IMG/VR virus record: IMGVR_UViG_3300021961_005701
Coordinates: 1 to 28,116 of that record
DNA: 28,116 nt
Direction: 5' to 3' (one strand)
From: a virus
Each line of letters begins with the position of its first letter. Positions within the stretch are counted from its first letter, which is position 1. The position numbers were made by a program, and so were the translations under genes. This document shows positions 11,250 through 27,990 of this stretch, in pieces. The notes beneath the pieces are model-generated. The model had not been told where the DNA came from and made no database searches. It saw only the letters and a list, made by a program, of their open reading frames with translations.

Positions 11250-12857
11250 ATGAATCAACCATTTAAATTATATACTTTAGATTCTAATGACCAATCTATT
11301 TTAAAAAAGGTCTTAGAATTATCTACTAATATAGAGAATATACGAGCATCCGCTGAAGGTGTGGGTAATCAAAGTTATTCATTCCCAACTGGGTTTGATA
11401 AAACATTTGAAAATTCAGAAAAAGAAAAAGAAAGAATCTTAAATGAAAATACTAAATTAAGTCAAATTTGGTATACATTAAATAAGCCTGAAAATAGAGT
11501 TGAAGTTGAAAAAATGTTAGAAAGGCATTTTAAAACTTTATATCCGAATATAAATTATCCATTAGAAATTCTATGGAATGTTACAATGTATACAGAAGGA
11601 TGTTTTATAGAAGAACATATTGATGGTAGAGATTCCGACAGAATGGCTGGATTTTTATTTTACTTAAATGAAAATTATGATGTTGATAATGGTGGTCTAC
11701 TAAGAGTTATAGACCCAAATACAAATGAAATAATAGATGTTGCGCCTGAATTTGGACAAGCAATATGTATTGATTATATAAATAATGAGGTGTCGCATGA
11801 AGTCACACCAGTTACAAACGGAAAAAGATTAGCAATTTGCGCATTCATTCATAAACGAAATCATATGGGAAAAAGTTACAAAATTTTAGTTACAGGAGCA
11901 AGTGGATTTATTGGTTCACAATTAGTTAAGAGTTTAAAAGAAAAAGGATATTGGAATCTACGAACTACATCATTCAGTAGAGATTTGCCTGATACAATAG
12001 AAAATAAACAATCTATTGAGCATATTAAGGGTGATTTACGAGATGCTGAATTTTGTAAACAAATTACAAAAGATGTTGATGTTGTATTCCATTTAGCAGC
12101 AAATACTTCAAATGCATTGGATACGAAATTTAATCCATTGTTGCATGTAACTCCAAATGTTATAATGAATGTTAATATGATGGAGCAAAGTTGGGTAAAT
12201 AGTGTTAAGAAATTTATGTTTATTTCTTCAAACACAACATATCCTGATATGAAAAATGAATTTTGTACCGAAGATATTAATGTACATGCTACCCCATTAT
12301 TACCAATTTATAAAGCAGTTGGTGGTATGAAACGATATGGTGAAATGTTATGTGATTTCTTTTCTAATCAGATTGAAAATCCAATGCAATGTATAATTAT
12401 CAGACCTTCGAATGCATTCGGACCGAATGATAAGTTTGATTTCGAAAAGTGTCATGTTACTCCTGCAAACATTCGTAAAGTAGCAGATGGATTAGACCCA
12501 ATACCAGTATGGGGTGATGGAACTGAAATCCGAGATTTACTACATGTTGAAGATATGGCAGATGGTATGATATTTTTAGCAGAAATGGTGGATAGATATT
12601 CTATTTATAATCTTTGTTATGGTGAAGGATTTAGTGTAAATGAAGTTTTAGGTTGGATTAAAGAATTGGATAACAATGATAAACCAATCGATTATGTAAA
12701 TAACAAAGCACCTATGATTCCAGTTAGATTATTATCATCTAAAAAAATTAATGATTTAGGATGGAAACCAAAGAGAGATTTAAAACAAGCTCTTAAAGAA
12801 ACATTGGAATGGTATAAAGAACATAAACACTTATATAATCCTAATTCGAAGCCATAA
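11250..12857 (+). CDS. Fusion: 2OG-Fe(II) oxygenase domain + NAD-dependent nucleotide-sugar epimerase
   Basis: This 535-residue protein has two enzymes in one chain. Residues 1-203 are an oxygenase of the same type as the two upstream genes: His123 and Asp125 (EEHIDG), His183 (VSHEV), Arg193 (GKRLAI). Residues 207-525 are an extended SDR with GASGFIG (216-222), HLAANTS, FISSNTTYP, RPSNAFGPND and a GDGTEIRDLLHVEDMA stretch. At the YxxxK position it reads V357-G-G-M-K361; the Lys is kept but Tyr is missing, although Tyr354 lies three residues earlier. An in-frame Met206 sits exactly at the junction, so an independent SDR start or a recent fusion is possible. The pairing suggests oxidation and epimerisation of the same sugar nucleotide, as inference. 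Confidence 0.8.
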   Translation: MNQPFKLYTLDSNDQSILKKVLELSTNIENIRASAEGVGNQSYSFPTGFDKTFENSEKEKERILNENTKLSQIWYTLNKPENRVEVEKMLERHFKTLYPNINYPLEILWNVTMYTEGCFIEEHIDGRDSDRMAGFLFYLNENYDVDNGGLLRVIDPNTNEIIDVAPEFGQAICIDYINNEVSHEVTPVTNGKRLAICAFIHKRNHMGKSYKILVTGASGFIGSQLVKSLKEKGYWNLRTTSFSRDLPDTIENKQSIEHIKGDLRDAEFCKQITKDVDVVFHLAANTSNALDTKFNPLLHVTPNVIMNVNMMEQSWVNSVKKFMFISSNTTYPDMKNEFCTEDINVHATPLLPIYKAVGGMKRYGEMLCDFFSNQIENPMQCIIIRPSNAFGPNDKFDFEKCHVTPANIRKVADGLDPIPVWGDGTEIRDLLHVEDMADGMIFLAEMVDRYSIYNLCYGEGFSVNEVLGWIKELDNNDKPIDYVNNKAPMIPVRLLSSKKINDLGWKPKRDLKQALKETLEWYKEHKHLYNPNSKP

Positions 12858-16255: not shown

Positions 16256-19200
16256 ATGAATTTGAACGAAGTAGATAAACCAGTAGTTAGAAAGACCATA
16301 GTAGTATATTCGGGTCGTTTTCAACCATTCCATAAAGGACATTATCTTTCGTATTTAAAACTTTGTAAAAAGTTTGGTACAGACAATGTCTATATTGGTA
16401 CGTCTAATGATACCTCTGGTCCAAAATCCCCTTTTAATTTTAATGAGAAGGTAAAGATAATGACTACTATGTTTGGTATACCATCAAATAAAATAGTTCA
16501 AGTTCGTAATCCATATGCTCCAAAAGAAATACTATCTCAATTTGATGGTAAAACAACTCAATATATTGCAGCAGTTGGAGAGAAGGATGCAAATAGATTA
16601 CAAGGTAAGTATTTTAAACCATATAAAGGCAAAGCTGGATATGGATACGAAGAAATAGGTTATGTTTATCCCGTTCCTGCTGAAACAAATGCAATTAGTG
16701 GAACCGATGTTCGTAATTGGTTAGGCAAGGATAATAAAGATAAAGAAAAAGGATTTTTAAAAGCATATCCTAAATTTGATAAAGAAATTTTTAAAATGAT
16801 AACAGGCAAATTAAACGAATCGGTAAATACAAATCCATCTGATAAATTAAGACCAGAGCCACATCCAACAAGACACGAAACCGAACATCCATCTAACGAA
16901 CCTGATTGGCATAATACATCCGAATTATATGACCCAATTAGCGAAATATTGGGTAAAGCGGTAGCTGAAGATATGTTTGAGGAGTTTGTTAAAACATATT
17001 TTAAAGAAGAATCTGAAGGTGAAAAATTAGGATTAGTCCATTTGGGTGGCGGATACTATGGTAAAGATAAAGGACAACCTGCTACTCATAAATCGGAAAA
17101 TGGTAAATTGAGAGCATTAACTCCTGCTGAAGCAGCAGCTGAAAAGCAGAAGCATATGGCTAAAGGCCCATCCGATGCACCTGCGAACGAACCAAAACCA
17201 TCTCAACCAGGACAACCTGTAAATAAAGGAGCAACGGCTCAAGGTAAAGTAGATAAAGCAAAAGAAGAACCAACTACTGATAAAAAGGGTGGGGAAGAAT
17301 CTGGCCAACAAGCGCCTCCTCCTGAGCAAAAATTAAGTGGAGATGAATTAAAATCTTCTGCGGAGATGAGTGATTCCGAAAAGAATAAAATCAAAGTAAA
17401 AGAAGAATTAGATTCTGTTAGAAAAAATTTATCTAAAGAAGAAAATGATGTTATAGATACAACAAACGACCCTAATTCATCAACTAGAAAAGGATTTGTA
17501 GATAATATAAAATCAGGTTTACAGCAATTTGGTAATGGATTAAAACATTGGGCTGAGCATAAAAAGGAAATGATTGGCGGAACAATGGATGCCGTTAAAG
17601 CATTAGCTAGTGGGCAAAAGATTGGTTCTACAAAAAATAAAGAAACAGGTGAGTGGGAATATTCGGATGAAAAAAGAAAAGAACAATTACATCATGTAAA
17701 ACATTTTGCTATTGATACTGGATTAATATTAGGTTCAATGGCATTGGGTGGAGCAGGTGTAGCGGTAGCTAAGACTGTTATGGCAGGGCAAGGTTTAGCC
17801 GCAGCCGGAGGAGCCGCTGTGCATGGTGCCGTTGGTGCATTTACACATGGTGTAGGTGGATTTGGCGCTCACCTTATGAAAGATATTGCTAAACACGCTA
17901 CATTAGAATCTCTTGGATTGGGAGCAAGTCAGGCAGCTGGAGCAGGTGCTGGATTATCAACCGCAACAATGGGATTATTAGAAATCTCAAATGGCGATGA
18001 TTCTAATACATTTTTGAGTAATCTAATTGGTAGAGTTTCCAAAACAATGGAAACATATAAACTAAATGATGAGCAATTATTAAATTCAATTCAATCATAT
18101 AAAAAACAAGAGCCAATGGCTAAAGCGGCTGATTTGATGAAGGAAGATTTATCTGATACAAAAAAACAATCAATCAGTCATTTTGTGGAATATGCAACTA
18201 AAAGATTAAAATTGGCAGAAACTCCTAATATAACATTGGTTGGAGGAAATGAATATGGTAATGTAAAATCATCTTTAGGTGGATATAATCCAGCCGATAA
18301 AACAATATATGTTGCAACCGAAGGTAGATTAACTGCTGATATTTTAAGAACGATTGCACATGAAATGGTTCATAGAAAGCAAGATGAATTAGGATATATT
18401 AAAGATTCGGTACAAGATGGAGCCGATGGTTCTCCAATAGAAAACCAAGCTCATTCAGTTGCTGGAATTTTAATGAGAGAATATGGTAGAATTAATAAAC
18501 AAATTTATAATGAAGATGTTAATGTAGATGTTGATAAAGGTGATGAGATTTTAATGGGTAAGTTTAAAAACAAAAAAGTTACCGTTAAAGATATTGGAAC
18601 TGATGACCATGGAATGCCAACAATCAATGGTAAGCAAGCTACTACATTCCGAATCCCACGAGGTGAAAGTGTAAATGAAGTTGGTTCAAATGACTGGAGA
18701 TTCAAAGCAATTATGAATATGTGGGATAAGGGTGGTTCATTTGTTAGAAAGAAAATCGCAGCAGTAGTTTGTAAAAATCCAAAAGCAGATAGAAATGATG
18801 TAGCAAGAGAATTGAGAAGTTTTGGATATAGAGATATTACAGGTGTTGGCGATGAATTGGGATTAGACGAAAAAAAAAATCTTAAAGAGAAACTATCACA
18901 ATCCAATTTAAATAGTGTTGAAAAATACGCAGATAAAGAATTATCTCCTGCTGATATAGAATTTAGTAATCATTTTTTCGATAGAGTAAATGATGCTCGT
19001 AATGGAAAAGAAATATCAGAACCAGAATTAACTGGCTTCTTCAAAAGATTGGCTAGACACAAAAAAGAATTTTTAGATTTTTTAGATAAATACAATCAAA
19101 TCGTAGTTAAAGATACGAGAAGTGATATCAATATTCCATTTGTAAAAATGGCAAATAAAGTTATTGCTAAGACTATAATGAGAAAGGGTGAATTTCAAAC

Positions 19201-20671
19201 ATCATCTCATACGATTGTAAATGAAGCACAGGCCGTTAGTGGTGGTAAGGTTCATAAATTCATTACTGGTAAAAATTTAGGATTCAAAGGTAAGAAGTAT
19301 TCTGAAATTGAATTTGAAACATTGGGAATCGATAATAGAAATCAGACTGTTAGATTAAAAATCATAGCACCAAAAGAAATTGGTGGTAATGAAATGAGTT
19401 TAGATTTCAGAACAATTAGAAGAGGTCCTTTTTTCAAAACCGATACCCGTTCTCACTCAATAAATGAAGGATTAATATTAGAAGGTGGGGCATATGGACA
19501 TATGAGTCATCCATTTGATGATATGGGTTTAACTTTTGGTGATTTAAAGAAAATTATCAAAGGAGCATTGACGGGTAACTTAGAATTGACAAGAGAAAAA
19601 ACCGATGGACAAGCATTGGCAATTAGTTGGAAAAATGGTAGATTAATTGCAGCAAGAAACAAAGGACATTTACAAAACGCAGGAGCAAATGCTATGGGTA
19701 TTGAAGATGTTGCATCGAAATTTGCCGGTAGAGGTGGTTTAACCGATGCTTACAATTTTGCTATGAGAGATTTATCTGCAGCAATTAGTTCATTATCTGA
19801 AGCACAAAGAAATAAGATATTTAATGAAGGACAATGTTTTATGAATTTGGAAGTAATATGGCCAACTTCGGTAAATGTTATTCCTTACGGACAGGCTTTA
19901 TTGGTATTTCATAATACAACTTGTTATGATGAGAAGGGTGTTGCAGTTGGTGCAAATCAAGGAGCAGCAACTATGTTAGCAGGAATGATTAAGCAAGTAA
20001 ACGCTGATGTTCAATCGAAGTATACAATACAAGGCCCACCTGTAACAGAACTACCTAAAAATGAGGAGTTAAGTTCAAAGCAAACAAAATACCTTACTCA
20101 ATTACAAAAGCTACAATTTCAGTTCCAATTATCTGATAAGGATGGTGTATCTGAATATCATCAAGCATGGTGGGAAGATTTTGTAAATAAAAGCGGTGTT
20201 AAATTACAAAAATTAGAAAAAGAAGCATTAGTTAGAAGATGGGCATTTTATGATAAATCATTCCGTTTAAATACTATTGCCGATAAAGATGCTCAAAAAT
20301 GGGCAATCGAACACGATAAAGTAAATGTAGCAAAACAACAAAAAGATAATGTTAGACAATTTGAAGAAATATTTTTGGGTGTTGGGGCAGATGTTCTTTC
20401 ATTTATGGGTTCAGTTTTAACTGTAAATCCAGATGCGGCAGTTCGTAATATGAAGGATAGATTGAAATCAACCGCAGAAAAAGTTAGAGGAAGTGGTGAC
20501 CCATCTAAAATAGCTAAATTAAAAATGGAATTAGCTAGATTGGCTAGTATTGGTGGTAAAGATAAGATAGTTCCAAATGAGGGTATTGTATTTGTTTATA
20601 AAGGAAACACTTACAAACTTACGGGTACATTCGCACCATTGAATCAAATATTAGGTATTTTTTACGAATAA
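16256..20671 (+). CDS. 1471-residue multidomain protein: NMN adenylyltransferase-like, metalloprotease-like and ligase-type nucleotidyltransferase domains
   Basis: Domains in order. Residues 10-160 are a cytidylyltransferase-fold domain of NMN adenylyltransferase type: GRFQPFHKGH contains the HxGH motif (26-29) and ISGTDVR (147-153) is the ISxTxxR-type motif. Residues 195-380 are a Pro/Lys/Gln-rich linker. Residues 486-575 are Gly/Ala-rich and hydrophobic. Residues 690-745 are gluzincin-like, with HEMVH (702-706) and Glu729. Residues 895-985 form a small domain with HFFDRVNDARNGK and a TIMRK segment. Residues 1085-1471 are a covalent nucleotidyltransferase: KTDG (Lys1115), FMNLEVIW (Glu1199), EGIVF (Glu1442) and YKLTG (Lys1454) fit ligase motifs I, III, IV and V, with a long insertion before motif IV. 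[LIV]-N-E tripeptides end at 5, 188, 808, 990 and 1071. It is probably a virion-associated polyprotein; that role is inferred. Confidence 0.8.
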   Translation: MNLNEVDKPVVRKTIVVYSGRFQPFHKGHYLSYLKLCKKFGTDNVYIGTSNDTSGPKSPFNFNEKVKIMTTMFGIPSNKIVQVRNPYAPKEILSQFDGKTTQYIAAVGEKDANRLQGKYFKPYKGKAGYGYEEIGYVYPVPAETNAISGTDVRNWLGKDNKDKEKGFLKAYPKFDKEIFKMITGKLNESVNTNPSDKLRPEPHPTRHETEHPSNEPDWHNTSELYDPISEILGKAVAEDMFEEFVKTYFKEESEGEKLGLVHLGGGYYGKDKGQPATHKSENGKLRALTPAEAAAEKQKHMAKGPSDAPANEPKPSQPGQPVNKGATAQGKVDKAKEEPTTDKKGGEESGQQAPPPEQKLSGDELKSSAEMSDSEKNKIKVKEELDSVRKNLSKEENDVIDTTNDPNSSTRKGFVDNIKSGLQQFGNGLKHWAEHKKEMIGGTMDAVKALASGQKIGSTKNKETGEWEYSDEKRKEQLHHVKHFAIDTGLILGSMALGGAGVAVAKTVMAGQGLAAAGGAAVHGAVGAFTHGVGGFGAHLMKDIAKHATLESLGLGASQAAGAGAGLSTATMGLLEISNGDDSNTFLSNLIGRVSKTMETYKLNDEQLLNSIQSYKKQEPMAKAADLMKEDLSDTKKQSISHFVEYATKRLKLAETPNITLVGGNEYGNVKSSLGGYNPADKTIYVATEGRLTADILRTIAHEMVHRKQDELGYIKDSVQDGADGSPIENQAHSVAGILMREYGRINKQIYNEDVNVDVDKGDEILMGKFKNKKVTVKDIGTDDHGMPTINGKQATTFRIPRGESVNEVGSNDWRFKAIMNMWDKGGSFVRKKIAAVVCKNPKADRNDVARELRSFGYRDITGVGDELGLDEKKNLKEKLSQSNLNSVEKYADKELSPADIEFSNHFFDRVNDARNGKEISEPELTGFFKRLARHKKEFLDFLDKYNQIVVKDTRSDINIPFVKMANKVIAKTIMRKGEFQTSSHTIVNEAQAVSGGKVHKFITGKNLGFKGKKYSEIEFETLGIDNRNQTVRLKIIAPKEIGGNEMSLDFRTIRRGPFFKTDTRSHSINEGLILEGGAYGHMSHPFDDMGLTFGDLKKIIKGALTGNLELTREKTDGQALAISWKNGRLIAARNKGHLQNAGANAMGIEDVASKFAGRGGLTDAYNFAMRDLSAAISSLSEAQRNKIFNEGQCFMNLEVIWPTSVNVIPYGQALLVFHNTTCYDEKGVAVGANQGAATMLAGMIKQVNADVQSKYTIQGPPVTELPKNEELSSKQTKYLTQLQKLQFQFQLSDKDGVSEYHQAWWEDFVNKSGVKLQKLEKEALVRRWAFYDKSFRLNTIADKDAQKWAIEHDKVNVAKQQKDNVRQFEEIFLGVGADVLSFMGSVLTVNPDAAVRNMKDRLKSTAEKVRGSGDPSKIAKLKMELARLASIGGKDKIVPNEGIVFVYKGNTYKLTGTFAPLNQILGIFYE

Positions 20672-22038: not shown

Positions 22039-23649
22039 ATGGCAGTTCAAGGGAAACCAACGAAAAGTCTAAAAGAAATAATTGCTGAAGAATATCGTAA
22101 ATGTGCGGCTGACCCCATTTACTTTATGAAGAAGTATTGTGTTATTCAACATCCGGTGAGGGGGAAAATTCCCTTTCACCTTTATCCTTTCCAGGAGGAT
22201 TGTTTAACGGACTTTAAGGAAAACCGATTTAATATCATCCTTAAATCTCGTCAATTGGGTTTATCAACTCTTTCGGCAGGATTTATTCTTTGGAAAATGA
22301 TATTCAATCAGGACTTCAACGCGTTGGTTATTGCAACAAAAGTGACGGTAGCTAAAAACCTTGTAGAAAAGGTTAGAGTTATGCACGATTTACTTCCAAT
22401 ATGGTTAAGAGATGGTGGAACGGCGGCAGCTGAAGATAACAAACTATCACTTAAATTAAAGAATGGTTCGCAAGTAAAAGCAATCGCATCATCTCCCGAT
22501 GCAGGTCGTTCTGAAGCCTTATCACTATTAGTTGTGGATGAGGCGGCATTCATTAGAGATATCGATGAAATTTGGTTATCAGCACAATCAACCCTATCAA
22601 CGGGTGGTTCTGCTATTATTCTTTCTACACCAAATGGTGTGGGTAACTTCTTCCATAAAACTTGGGTAGCCGGTGAAGCTGGGCAAAATGGTTTCAATTG
22701 TATTAATCTACATTGGACTGTACACCCTGAAAGAAATCAAGCATGGAGAGATGAACAAACTCGTATTTTGGGAGTTAAAGGAGCGGCACAAGAATGTGAT
22801 TGTGACTTTATTGGTTCAGGTGATACCGTAATTGAACCGGCATTATTGAGTTGGTATAAAGATACCTATGTAATGGAGCCGGTTGAAAAGAGAGGGTTTG
22901 ATAGTAATCTGTGGGTTTGGGAACATCCAAACTACAATAGACAATATATGGTATGTGCTGACGTTGCCCGTGGAGATGGAGCCGATTTTTCAACTGCGCA
23001 AGTAATTGATATTGAAGATAGTTCGCAAGTAGCAGAATATAGAGGTAAGATTGACACTAAGGATTTTGGTAATTTCTTAACTTCATTGGCAACCGAATAT
23101 AACAATGCATTACTTGTTGTGGAAAACTCAAATGTAGGTTGGGCATGCATTCAACAAATTATCAATAGAGGATATCCAAATTTATTCTATATGAGTAATG
23201 ATTTGAAATACATCGATACAGAAAGACAAATGAGTAACAAATATTATAGAGATGAAAAGCAAATGGTTGCAGGATTCTCCACAACATCAAAAACTCGTCC
23301 TCTTATCATATCAGCATTGGATACTTATATGAATGAGAAGGAAATTCTTATCCGTTCTAATAGATTAATAGATGAAATGTTTACATTTATTTGGAGTGGT
23401 GGTAGAGCCGAAGCTATGAAAGGATACAATGATGACTTGATTATGGCATTGGCAATCGGACTTTGGGTTCGTAATACTGCACTTCGTTTGAGACAAGAAG
23501 GCATTGATTTAACAAAGAGTATGTTGAGCTCGACTACGATACAAAATAACTCGGGAGTTTATGCTACAAACTGGCAACAGGGAAGAAATCCATATGAAAT
23601 GGAAATAGGAAAAGGGCAAACTGAAAACCTAACTTGGTTACTTCGTTAA
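22039..23649 (+). CDS. Terminase large subunit (T4 gp17-like DNA packaging ATPase/nuclease)
   Basis: This 536-residue protein is the DNA-packaging motor and headful nuclease. ATPase domain: an adenine-binding Q-like region (YPFQEDCL, 49-56), Walker A SRQLGLST (70-77), Walker B LLVVDEA (163-169) and the coupling motif ILSTPNG (194-200). RNase H-like nuclease domain: Asp308 in VCADVARGDGADFS, Glu362 in LLVVENSN, and Asp465/466 in GYNDDLIMALA. Order and length agree with T4 gp17 and its marine relatives. In infected cells it docks on the portal encoded at 24256-26004. The ATG follows the membrane-protein stop by one base. All catalytic residues are present. Confidence 0.95.
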   Translation: MAVQGKPTKSLKEIIAEEYRKCAADPIYFMKKYCVIQHPVRGKIPFHLYPFQEDCLTDFKENRFNIILKSRQLGLSTLSAGFILWKMIFNQDFNALVIATKVTVAKNLVEKVRVMHDLLPIWLRDGGTAAAEDNKLSLKLKNGSQVKAIASSPDAGRSEALSLLVVDEAAFIRDIDEIWLSAQSTLSTGGSAIILSTPNGVGNFFHKTWVAGEAGQNGFNCINLHWTVHPERNQAWRDEQTRILGVKGAAQECDCDFIGSGDTVIEPALLSWYKDTYVMEPVEKRGFDSNLWVWEHPNYNRQYMVCADVARGDGADFSTAQVIDIEDSSQVAEYRGKIDTKDFGNFLTSLATEYNNALLVVENSNVGWACIQQIINRGYPNLFYMSNDLKYIDTERQMSNKYYRDEKQMVAGFSTTSKTRPLIISALDTYMNEKEILIRSNRLIDEMFTFIWSGGRAEAMKGYNDDLIMALAIGLWVRNTALRLRQEGIDLTKSMLSSTTIQNNSGVYATNWQQGRNPYEMEIGKGQTENLTWLLR

Positions 23650-24255: not shown

Positions 24256-26004
24256 ATGGCAGATAAATCAATATTCGGTAGGTTACAAAAATTATTTTCA
24301 ACAAATACCATAGTTCGTAAAACGCAAAAAGGTGTTAAAGTAATTGATACAGATGAGTATCAAAATATGACAACAAACCTTGTTGACCGTTATATGAAAT
24401 TAAAAATCAGTAACTATGGGGTTGGTTCGTTGGAATCATCTTTAGCTTATCAACAAGTAAGAATAGATTTGTTTAGAGATTATGATTCAATGGATATGGA
24501 CCCGATTTTGGCATCCGCATTGGATATTTACGCAGATGAGTGTACTCCTACGAATGAACATGGTAATGTATTAAAGATACACCACGAAGATGATAATATT
24601 AAACAAATTTTAGAAAACTTATTTTATGATATTCTTAATGTAGAATTCAACTTATGGCCTTGGACAAGAAACTTGGTTAAATATGGTGATTTTTATTTAC
24701 AATTAGAAATTTCAGAGGGATTGGGTATTATAAATGTAATGCCGATGTCTACATATGAAATGAGTAGAGTTGAAGGATTCGATGCAGAAAATCCACAAAG
24801 AGTTAAATTTGTATATGCACCATATCAGAATCCATACACTGGAGCATATCAGGCAACTAAAACCGAATATGAGAATTATGAAATCGCTCACTTCCGTTTA
24901 AATGGTGATGCAAACTTCTTACCTTATGGAAAATCTATGATAGAAGGTGCTAGAAGAGTTTGGAAACAATTACAATTGATGGAAGATGCTATGTTAATTC
25001 ATAGAGTAATGAGAGCACCTGAAAAGAGAATCTTCAAAGTAGATGTTGGTAATATTCCACCAAATGAAGTGGATAACTACATGCAGAAGATTATCAACGC
25101 ATCGAAGAAAGTTCCATTCGTTGATGAAAAAACAGGTGAGTATAACTTAAAATACAATATCCAAAACCTTATTGAAGATTACTATATGCCAGTTCGTGGT
25201 AGTGATAATGGTACATCTATTGATACATTAAAAGGGTTGGAATATAATATGATTGATGACCTTAACTACTTAAAGAGTAAGTTAATGGCTGCATTAAAAA
25301 TTCCCAAAGCATATTTAGGATATGAAGAAGATACCAATGGTAAAGCAACATTGGCATCTATGGATATTCGTTTTGCAAAAACTATTGAAAGAATTCAAAA
25401 AGTATTAATTTCAGAATTAACAAAAATTGGAATTATTCATTTATATGCACAAGGAATAGATGATGATAGATTAACTAATTTTACATTAGAACTTACTATC
25501 CCATCTAAAATCTATGAGCAAGAACAAGTTGAACTATACACTTCAAAAGTAGCATTGATTCAACAAATGCAACAAACGAAGATGTTCTCTAAAGAATGGA
25601 TGTATGATTCTGTAATGAAGATGGCTAAGGATGAGCAAGATGAATTAACATTGCAAGTATTAGAAGATACAAAACAAATGTTCAGACTAACATCAATTGA
25701 AACGCAAGGTGTAGACCCTGCGAAAGAAACAGGAACTGAAGGTGGCCCAACAAATGTAGAAGAAGAATTGACTAGATTAAAATCGGAATTAGAAACCGAA
25801 GGAGAAGTTGGTAGACCTAAAGACCCGGTTAGATATGGTAAAGATGACCATCCGGAAGGAAGAGACCCGTTGGGAATAAAAACTCTAAAACAAAAAGAAG
25901 GTTCTGTTGCTTATAAACCAAGAAAGAGTTCATATTTTGAAATATTTAAAGATATGGATGGTAATAAAAAGAAGATTTTGACAGAAGATTTAATAAAAGA
26001 GTAA
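24256..26004 (+). CDS. Portal protein (T4 gp20-like)
   Basis: This 582-residue protein has the length and motif order of gp20-type portals. The early DRYMKLKISNYGVGSLESS and LFRDYDSMDMDPILASALD segments are followed by a wing/stem region with EIAHFRLNG and FLPYGKSMIEGARRVWKQL. The characteristic LKIPKAYLGYEED with LASMDIRFAKTIERIQK comes next. The portal is the dodecameric ring at the special vertex that nucleates head assembly and docks TerL. The last 100 residues are charged and probably disordered, ending KKKILTEDLIKE, where L-T-E resembles a T4 prohead protease site. One accessory gene lies between it and TerL; T4 has the tail sheath and tube genes there. Confidence 0.93.
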   Translation: MADKSIFGRLQKLFSTNTIVRKTQKGVKVIDTDEYQNMTTNLVDRYMKLKISNYGVGSLESSLAYQQVRIDLFRDYDSMDMDPILASALDIYADECTPTNEHGNVLKIHHEDDNIKQILENLFYDILNVEFNLWPWTRNLVKYGDFYLQLEISEGLGIINVMPMSTYEMSRVEGFDAENPQRVKFVYAPYQNPYTGAYQATKTEYENYEIAHFRLNGDANFLPYGKSMIEGARRVWKQLQLMEDAMLIHRVMRAPEKRIFKVDVGNIPPNEVDNYMQKIINASKKVPFVDEKTGEYNLKYNIQNLIEDYYMPVRGSDNGTSIDTLKGLEYNMIDDLNYLKSKLMAALKIPKAYLGYEEDTNGKATLASMDIRFAKTIERIQKVLISELTKIGIIHLYAQGIDDDRLTNFTLELTIPSKIYEQEQVELYTSKVALIQQMQQTKMFSKEWMYDSVMKMAKDEQDELTLQVLEDTKQMFRLTSIETQGVDPAKETGTEGGPTNVEEELTRLKSELETEGEVGRPKDPVRYGKDDHPEGRDPLGIKTLKQKEGSVAYKPRKSSYFEIFKDMDGNKKKILTEDLIKE

Positions 26005-27216: not shown

Positions 27217-27990
27217 ATGCCAGCACAATCAAAAGCACAACAAAGATTTATGGGTATGGTTCATGCAGCTCAAAAAGGTGATATGGAAAACCCATCTCCA
27301 GAAGTTTCTAAAGCAGCAGACTCAATGTCTGATAAAGATGCTAAAGATTTTGCTTCAACTAAGCATAAAGGATTGCCAGACCATGTTAAAGAAGTAGTAA
27401 TAAACGAATTGAGAGGAGTTAAATCCATTCAAAACGATTATATGAAAACCGTTGATGCAATTGCACAAACTTTGGAATTGTATAAAAAATCAAAAGGAAC
27501 TCCTAATGAAAAGAAAGCAGTAGAAAGATTAAAACAACTACAAACCTTAAAAAAGAAATTTGCAGATGAGTTAGATGCAAAAGTTAGTGGATTGTATAAG
27601 GATGTTGAACTAAAAGCCGATGTAGATGAGATGAACACATCAGGTGCAGCCGGTCCATATAATACTCCATTTGCATTTGGTAAACCCGAAAGTGAGGAAA
27701 AGAAAGGTAAAAGACAAGCAGATTTAACGGGATATAGTGTAGTTAAGGAAAATCGTTGGTTAGCATTAAAAAATGAAGAATCATCTGCACAAGCTAAAAT
27801 AGGTAAAGGTATATCTAATATCAATAAACAATTAGCAGAAATGGAACAATTTCTTAATTGGTACGGAAAAATTAAGAATGAAAGTGGTGTAGATAATAAA
27901 AGTTATTGGAAAAGAACAAATAGTCATATTTATAGTATAAAAGAAAGACTATTAAAGTTGGACCAAAAAATTAGACAAATTTCAGAATAA
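27217..27990 (+). CDS. DUF3008-like N-terminus plus coiled-coil phage protein
   Basis: The first 57 of 257 residues (MPAQSKAQQRFMGMVHAAQK, then SPEVSKAADSMS, then STKHKGLPDHV) match the short DUF3008-type module, which occurs both as a stand-alone small protein and as a phage protein N-terminus. INE (62-64) follows, a possible T4-type prohead protease site, so the module could be a removable leader. Next come a coiled coil (about 70-125), a MNTSGAAGPYNTPFAFG linker common in marine phage proteins, and a helical C-terminal domain (NRWLALKNEES to the end, with EQFLNWYGKIKNE and SYWKRTN). It probably belongs to the virion or prohead core. Its stop overlaps the next ATG by one base. Confidence 0.62.
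   Translation: MPAQSKAQQRFMGMVHAAQKGDMENPSPEVSKAADSMSDKDAKDFASTKHKGLPDHVKEVVINELRGVKSIQNDYMKTVDAIAQTLELYKKSKGTPNEKKAVERLKQLQTLKKKFADELDAKVSGLYKDVELKADVDEMNTSGAAGPYNTPFAFGKPESEEKKGKRQADLTGYSVVKENRWLALKNEESSAQAKIGKGISNINKQLAEMEQFLNWYGKIKNESGVDNKSYWKRTNSHIYSIKERLLKLDQKIRQISE

Follow-up and report, generated by a model that had tools for sequence, protein, structure and literature searches.

Each internal head protein of bacteriophage T4 is known to yield one mature product. The T4 head proteins IPII, IPIII and Alt carry an N-terminal leader that ends in L/I-x-E and is cut by the S77-type prohead protease; this protease, gp21, cleaves after L/I-X-E, and leaders of 10 residues direct T4 internal proteins into the core of the prohead (PMC9026906). 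Alt is cut near both of its ends (PMC5694885). A second described system, the polyvalent proteins of phages and plasmids, has been likened by its authors to the polyproteins of RNA viruses (Iyer et al., 2017; PMC5512222). The subject here is a protein of 1471 residues encoded by an open reading frame (ORF) at 16256..20671, plus strand, in a stretch of 28,116 nucleotides (hereafter the window; positions 1 to 28,116 of IMG/VR virus record IMGVR_UViG_3300021961_005701) that represents the head gene cluster of a T4-like phage. This modular protein, with homologues in the best 80 of 178 matching stretches, is probably an effector polyprotein that phages of a T4-like lineage package into the head and cut with a protease.

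From direct observations, namely the cassette mosaic of the protein family, a recurring motif at the exchange points, a nearby protease gene in sister contigs and T4-type leaders on relatives, we infer packaging, cutting, injection and enzyme functions. The polyprotein would be made alongside the head proteins and taken into the prohead core, where a gp21-type S77 protease would cut it in trans after [LIV]-x-E at residues 5, 188, 808, 878, 990 and 1071/1076. The cuts would free a nicotinamide mononucleotide adenylyltransferase (NMNAT)-like enzyme, a zincin, small domains and a ligase-type enzyme; the products would stay in the head and be ejected with the DNA, and could, early in infection, restore nicotinamide adenine dinucleotide (NAD) and mend severed RNA or DNA. 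These predicted roles are drawn from the enzyme families: NMNAT would rebuild NAD, which several defence systems deplete, and the ligase would rejoin cut RNA or DNA. Because each cassette carries its own putative cut site, cassettes could be swapped without re-engineering the protein.

Candidate cut sites and cassette exchange

The tripeptide [LIV]NE occurs after residues 5, 188, 808, 990 and 1071, followed by V, S, V, A and G, respectively; five occurrences exceed chance expectation, since shuffled sequences average 1.1 and 0.48% of 5000 shuffles reach five. The ORF, its length, the five tripeptides and their following residues are as the first-pass annotation of this DNA had described them. 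That annotation had also placed the sites between modules; they do lie at module borders where cassettes are exchanged, and two junctions of the same kind, NLKE↓KLSQ at 878 and LILE↓GGAY at 1076 (arrows mark putative cuts), had been overlooked. The proposed T4-like cut motif holds in the form [LIV]-x-E and not strictly as [LIV]NE: the candidate motif stands at borders 5, 188, 808, 878, 990, 1071 and 1076, accepts V besides L and I at P3, and prefers N at P2 without requiring it. As had been anticipated, alignment of the homologues finds the sites kept while most flanking residues vary. The window protein contains 18 [LIV]xE tripeptides, seven of which are no more than 7 residues away from an exchange point; positions this close make up 10% of the chain. 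Family-wide counts relative to shuffled sequences ([LIV]NE 3.2-fold, [AFMWY]NE 2.8-fold, [LIV]SE 2.4-fold, [LIV]NQ 2.2-fold) are not relied on, because homologous positions are counted repeatedly.

Across the 80 loci, the family forms a mosaic in which the NMNAT-like start and the ligase-type end are near-constant and the middle cassettes are exchanged; in one locus (L070), residues 15-191 are joined directly to 752-808, and most of the stretch 879-1068 is missing in L005, L006, L008, L012 and others. Exchange points were defined by pairwise comparison of family proteins of at least 400 residues (72 of 76 unique proteins), counting sharp breakpoints only; this gave 457 unique inside-contexts from 2965, and 599 distinct two-sided contexts. 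An [LIV]NE cut position lay within 5 residues of 170 of the 599 exchange contexts (28%), compared to 2.6% of random places in the same proteins, an 11-fold enrichment; [LIV]xE was found near 386 of the 599 (64%), compared to about 14% at random places (4.7-fold).

A second set of junctions was anchored on the first residues of a cassette, so that their choice was independent of the motif. Before the start of the ligase cassette, GG[A/L][Y/G]GHM, all 37 distinct contexts have E at P1 and L, I or V at P3; P2 takes five different residues, and P7-P10 vary. The [LI]TQG cassette is preceded by [LIV]xE in 11 of 11 contexts. Upstream of the cassette that starts at residue 809, P1 is E in 18 of 18 distinct contexts and P3 is [LIV] in 11 of these 18. 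The end of the NMNAT cassette is marked by L[NST]E at a fixed place (20 of 27 contexts), by IKE one residue further on (5 of 27) or by LGE three residues further on (2 of 27); counted by eye, [LIV]xE is found at this place or at most 4 residues away in all 27 distinct contexts.

The exchange extends to other proteins of the head cluster. Among the other ORFs in the loci, 7 of 624 have matches in the family; apart from one truncated piece of a family member, they represent four distinct head-cluster proteins, two of which occur twice (six ORFs). Two of these four start with MTKLKDILNE and MKLLIRVLKE, at the place where the shared stretch begins. One of the four is a 509-residue head protein of the sister genome L093 (6994-8523), in the position of the DUF3008 protein; it contains several [SV]NE or [IV]NE words, and the stretch that it has in common with the L042 polyprotein closes with LKESINE↓G. 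The DUF3008 head-cluster protein of the window itself, whose same-place counterpart in L093 is this cassette-sharing protein, is encoded at 27217..27990, plus strand.

Leaders of relatives and the prohead protease gene

The 41 family proteins have 29 distinct leaders, 24 of which hold [LIV]xE within the first 20 residues. Distant members of the family start with MSTLSTFLAE, MNELSKYLME and MNELSKFLVE, and T4 ipII and ipIII start with MKTYQEFIAE↓A. In the 462-kb phage LR756500, a standalone ligase starts with MKFLKSYEEFLNE↓NLILE↓GGSYGH; here, a T4-like leader directly precedes the same junction that is found within the polyproteins. The Microcystis phage Mel-JY01 encodes a two-part protein of NMNAT and ligase that has LLSE at position 11 and IIAE↓GG where the two parts meet, located upstream of the terminase and of an annotated prohead protease; no papers on Mel-JY01 were found in the open-licence literature. 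The pattern has exceptions among the relatives: the 915-residue NMNAT and ligase protein of LR756508 is without the GGAY junction, its ligase part starting with HLRHPFED and no adjacent [LIV]xE, and a 907-residue protein of Flavobacterium phage immuto, annotated as NMNAT and located upstream of the terminase, is without such a leader at its start.

Similar leaders are found on NMNAT-like cytidyltransferases of cyanophages (T4-GC 190): 10 of 12 start like MKSYKEFLSE↓A, and those of Syn1 and S-PM2 do not (the 12 were hand-picked from 534 matching records, by way of a 60-row spread list plus S-SRM01). These N-termini suggest that the product of this gene, which is common in cyanophages, is packaged in the head. 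A by-eye likeness between residues 253-275 of the window protein and the stretch following the leader in these cytidyltransferases (KLGLxHxGxGxY) was dropped after tblastn gave no support.

Head-cluster neighbours were read in 8 of the 80 loci. All 8 sister contigs searched contain a gene for Peptidase_S77, the family of the T4-type prohead protease; it lies past terminase and portal, about 8-10 kb beyond the end of the polyprotein gene and on the same strand. These contigs include L001, a 198.5-kb IMG/VR contig with a 100% identical polyprotein that was used as the sister genome; the S77 search of the 28-kb window record itself gave no match. In the window, the polyprotein gene is preceded by nucleotide-sugar genes, among others, and followed by the head-cluster marker terminase large subunit (22039..23649, plus strand; PF03237, phrog_2) and by the T4-type portal protein gp20 (24256..26004, plus strand; PF07230, E 5e-72). 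As an observation on the upstream genes, a single ORF at 11250-12857 combines a 2-oxoglutarate-Fe(II) (2OG-Fe(II)) oxygenase-type part with a nucleotide-sugar epimerase. In the genome of L009 (L092, 1462-4269), the terminase gene is divided into two ORFs with a 247-residue ORF in between, possibly a second gene fractured in the manner of the ligase gene described below.

The head proteins of the same eight genomes carry sites of the same kind. The protease starts with LLIE↓T, which T4 gp21 has at position 9; the coat protein has LLDE↓A near its N-terminus (P1 at 59 in L089 and at 61 in L094), and the scaffold has LLKE↓A near its N-terminus. N-termini resembling a capsid targeting sequence (CTS-like, a pattern of our own definition) occur in 30 of 123 head-cluster ORFs of the eight related genomes and, with the sister genome taken by itself, in 3 of 15, compared to 3 of 78 ORFs in an 80-kb part of the sister genome beyond the head cluster; control patterns gave 0-2 matches per head cluster and 1-5 in the rest. 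Outside the head cluster of the sister genome (L106-L109), ORFs starting with MIKLKDLLN, MIKLKGLLNE and MIKLTDLISE resemble the head-cluster leaders of this lineage; by these N-termini, the three are candidates for further packaged proteins.

Modules of the 1471-residue protein

The modules are given in order along the chain, all on the plus strand. The leader MNLNE (16256..16270) has five residues and ends at the putative first cleavage site. It is followed by a cassette (residues 6-188, ending KLNE↓S; 16271..16819) that, on profile, fold and motif evidence, is an NMNAT-like nucleotidyltransferase of predicted activity: PF01467 matches residues 17-153 (E 3.8e-5, 24.3 bits against a cut-off of 21), phrog_395 is matched as well, and NMNAT structures lead the Foldseek matches of the N-terminal part (E 5.4e-4). 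NMN adenylyltransferases are characterized by the motifs GxFxPxHxGH and ISxTxxR; their counterparts here are GRFQPFHKGHY at residues 20-30 and ISGTDVR at 147-153. Residues 189-808 (ending SVNE↓V; 16820..18679) comprise a Pro-rich stretch of low model confidence, a helical Gly/Ala-rich part, a zincin and a small beta segment. The zincin has HEMVH at 702-706 and a match to the phrog_87 metallo-protease (E 0.0019); its best fold matches, at Z 8.8, are the DNA-protein crosslink repair protease 6mdx and YbeY, besides many generic zincins. A second HExxH word, HETEH at residue 207 (16874-16888), lies in a low-confidence stretch and is probably non-catalytic.

A helical cassette of 70 residues (809-878, ending NLKE↓K; 18680..18889) is found in 40 proteins. 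The next is the HFFDR cassette (879-990, ending IVNE↓A; 18890..19225), weakly similar to RegB; its match to the RegB endoribonuclease stays below the Pfam cut-off (16.7 bits against 27, E 0.008), and the domain is found in separate proteins of other phages too. A beta-rich cassette with strands in the model (991-1076, ending SINE↓GLILE↓GGAY; 19226..19483) leads to the ligase-type covalent nucleotidyltransferase cassette (1077-1471; 19484..20668), which is assigned by its motifs and its junction, with weak RNA ligase fold matches. ATP-dependent polynucleotide ligases share a set of motifs named I (KxDG), Ia, III, IV and V; the ligase-type motifs are complete and in order in the window protein (KTDG at 1115, RNK at 1134, EVI, EGIVF at 1442, KLTG at 1454), and 71 of 72 sequences show each motif pattern; an intein interrupts the remaining one. 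RNA ligase chains top the Foldseek matches of the C-terminal part (E 0.11), with weak Z values of up to 4.9 that may reflect only a common arrangement; for residues 590-1471, Foldseek gave no match below E 0.001. Judged by sequence and fold, at least two domains of disparate predicted activity are joined in one phage chain. In Pfam searches of 10 long homologues and of a single DUF3008-type protein, few of the middle cassettes received a name (DUF5661, and weakly DUF6934 and FIMAH); cassettes with paired CxxC, resembling zinc ribbons, are bounded by the same type of site in L057 (residues 973-1023) and L044 (residues 414-735).

A side observation concerns the ligase gene in L010 (7600-8600; also in L009), which is split directly after the catalytic lysine (between K and TDG) by an apparent split intein: an intein-like N-half ends the first ORF, a separate frame of up to 249 codons follows, and a further ORF carries an intein-like C-half and the rest of the ligase. 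The N-half gave weak Hint/intein matches in L009, and the 249-codon frame is, by eye, a possible homing endonuclease; an Rfam search around the L010 intein found nothing. The insertion at this place implies that the catalytic lysine is probably important.

In the AlphaFold models (residue numbering in the second is offset by 589), the predicted local distance difference test (pLDDT) falls below 50 at residues 1-6, 190-241, 797-808, 876-920, 942-1006 and 1055-1082, among other stretches. Sites 5, 808, 878, 990, 1071 and 1076 lie inside such stretches, and 188 lies two residues before one. As a caveat, pLDDT is below 50 in 210 of 640 and 200 of 882 modelled residues; since a quarter to a third of the residues score so low, the position of the sites is modest evidence. 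On these models, the evidence for placement in a linker is fair for 5, 188, 808 and 1071/1076, and the model is poor overall at 878 and 990. The first-pass annotation had pointed to structure prediction as a check on linkers, and this check lends it modest support for most sites. Its list of NMNAT-like, HExxH, HFFDR, beta-rich and ligase-type parts is recovered; the fragment 189-808, for which it had named no enzyme, holds the zincin together with a low-confidence part. Its interpretation of the protein as packaged and cut is, by the sequence evidence, partly supported.

Alternative readings and known systems

The protein could instead remain an uncut multidomain component of the virion or the cytoplasm, in which [LIV]xE is a linker habit or a conserved cassette end or start; this is unlikely. 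The motif is short and is found within domains as well, and several further observations speak against the interpretation as a cut polyprotein. Eleven of the 18 [LIV]xE in the window protein are off the exchange points, the leader site at 5 among them, and a VTE inside the ligase part, likewise off the exchange points, recurs in many members; the tripeptide alone is therefore weak evidence, and what counts is where it stands relative to the exchange points. Some look-alike motifs, too, are more frequent there than at random places: NE[LIV] 6.7-fold (3.2-fold after [LIV]NE is masked), E[LIV]N 7-fold (with small counts, 25 of 599), EN[LIV] 3-fold, [LIV]NK 3.5-fold, [FMWY]NE 4.7-fold and FxE 1.8-fold; the enrichment of [FMWY]NE and FxE is compatible with a looser P3 in the presumed recognition site, and the other look-alikes are only partly explained. 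Upstream of the 809 cassette, P3 is F in six and T in one of the 18 contexts, a further deviation. Among the 37 contexts of the ligase junction, 34 have an aliphatic residue or Met at P4 and 36 have E or K at P6; with these positions conserved as well, some of the stretch may belong to the start of the ligase cassette itself. A leaderless start (MDKP...) is found in 4 of the 41 family proteins, equivalent to 3 of the 29 distinct leaders, and two further distinct leaders are without [LIV]xE. The window leader has 5 residues compared to the 10-residue T4 type; in T4 Alt, the cut follows the sixth residue (ITE-6; PMC5694885). Finally, the genomes are related, and the counts are not independent.

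Yet the combination of aliphatic P3 and Glu P1 appears specific. At the exchange points, [polar or small]xE is enriched only 1.2-fold, and 1.0-fold once [LIV]xE is masked; N[LIV]E (0.9-fold), [LIV]EN (0.7-0.8-fold), [LIV]ND (0.3-fold) and [LIV]xK (1.0-fold) likewise show no enrichment. P1 and P3 are invariant in kind at the ligase junction while P2 varies, the same pattern precedes unrelated cassettes such as TQG, and relatives bear T4-type leaders; all of this argues against an uncut protein.

The polyprotein could also cut itself through its own zincin, as in the model for polyvalent proteins, with [LIV]xE as the zincin site or unrelated to cutting; this is quite improbable. An HExxH is present in 35 of the 43 members that pass a filter for near-complete ORFs (not open at the 5' end, at least 900 residues, holding GHM; two or three shortened members, L010, L013 and L017, are included), and embedded zincins have been proposed to process the polyvalent proteins of phages and plasmids (PMC5512222). 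The other 8 of the 43 (about four lineages) are without HExxH, with a single HExxxH-type word in L044, yet all 8 keep [LIV]xE↓GGAY; because they lack the domain and keep the ligase junction, self-cutting by the HExxH domain cannot be general, and zincin autocleavage was rejected as a general mechanism. The two-part protein of Mel-JY01 and the free ligase of LR756500 similarly have no HExxH and keep leader and junction, and the same motif stands near the N-termini of coat, scaffold and protease. A DNA-level origin, with the exchange points as recombination hot spots of microhomology and the amino acid motif as a by-product, was rejected as highly improbable: the window is AT-rich and the words TTAAATGAA and TTAAACGAA recur, but 70 [LIV]NE exchange contexts are encoded by 20 different 9-base words and the 37 ligase junctions by 21 words, with codon use near the family background, so that selection appears to act on the protein and not on a DNA word.

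With the protein read as a packaged polyprotein cut in trans by the prohead protease, we lean towards a wider view: the family may be a phage analogue of the RNA-virus polyprotein, an open-ended chain of swappable cassettes with prohead-protease sites as joints, in which an enzyme inserted between two sites would be packed into the head, cut free and delivered, and in whose cassette exchange other head-cluster proteins take part. If true, this would account for the way in which phages bring a variety of early effectors into the head under a single address, and it would offer a simple search rule for injected anti-defence enzymes of uncultured phages, namely [LIV]xE-bounded cassettes near a gp21 gene; an NAD-making enzyme and a ligase would be present at entry, the moment at which defences that deplete NAD or cut RNA would act.

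Searches of the open-licence literature turned up no description of a prohead-cleaved phage polyprotein recognisable as this family. Available passages of reviews on viral NAD systems and jumbo phages mention packaged ADP-ribosyltransferases and phage NAD synthesis, and not this polyprotein family; in the available text of the polyvalent-protein paper, the term NMNAT is absent, and the ligase passage concerns 2H domains that do not associate with RNA ligases (PMC5512222). Among the known systems, the T4 internal proteins are similar in that relatives of the ligase and NMNAT parts bear near-T4 leaders; they differ in that 6-7 predicted cuts would here release several unrelated enzymes from one chain. 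The cyanophage cytidyltransferases (phrog_395) share the NMNAT-like domain, and 10 of the 12 read start with a T4-type leader; they are single enzymes without a cassette chain. The ejection proteins of phiKZ and SPN3US are likewise cut several times by a prohead protease, which recognizes a short x-x-E motif and cuts behind it; in these proteins the additional cuts break up propeptides, and the available passages describe no multi-enzyme release from one chain (PMC10052503, PMC5694885). Polyvalent proteins resemble the present family in joining many unrelated enzyme domains, often with a zincin, in one phage chain that is predicted to be injected (PMC5512222). In contrast to the polyvalent model, which in its available outline relies on embedded peptidases, the cassette borders of the present family, with or without a zincin, are likely sites of a prohead protease acting in trans.

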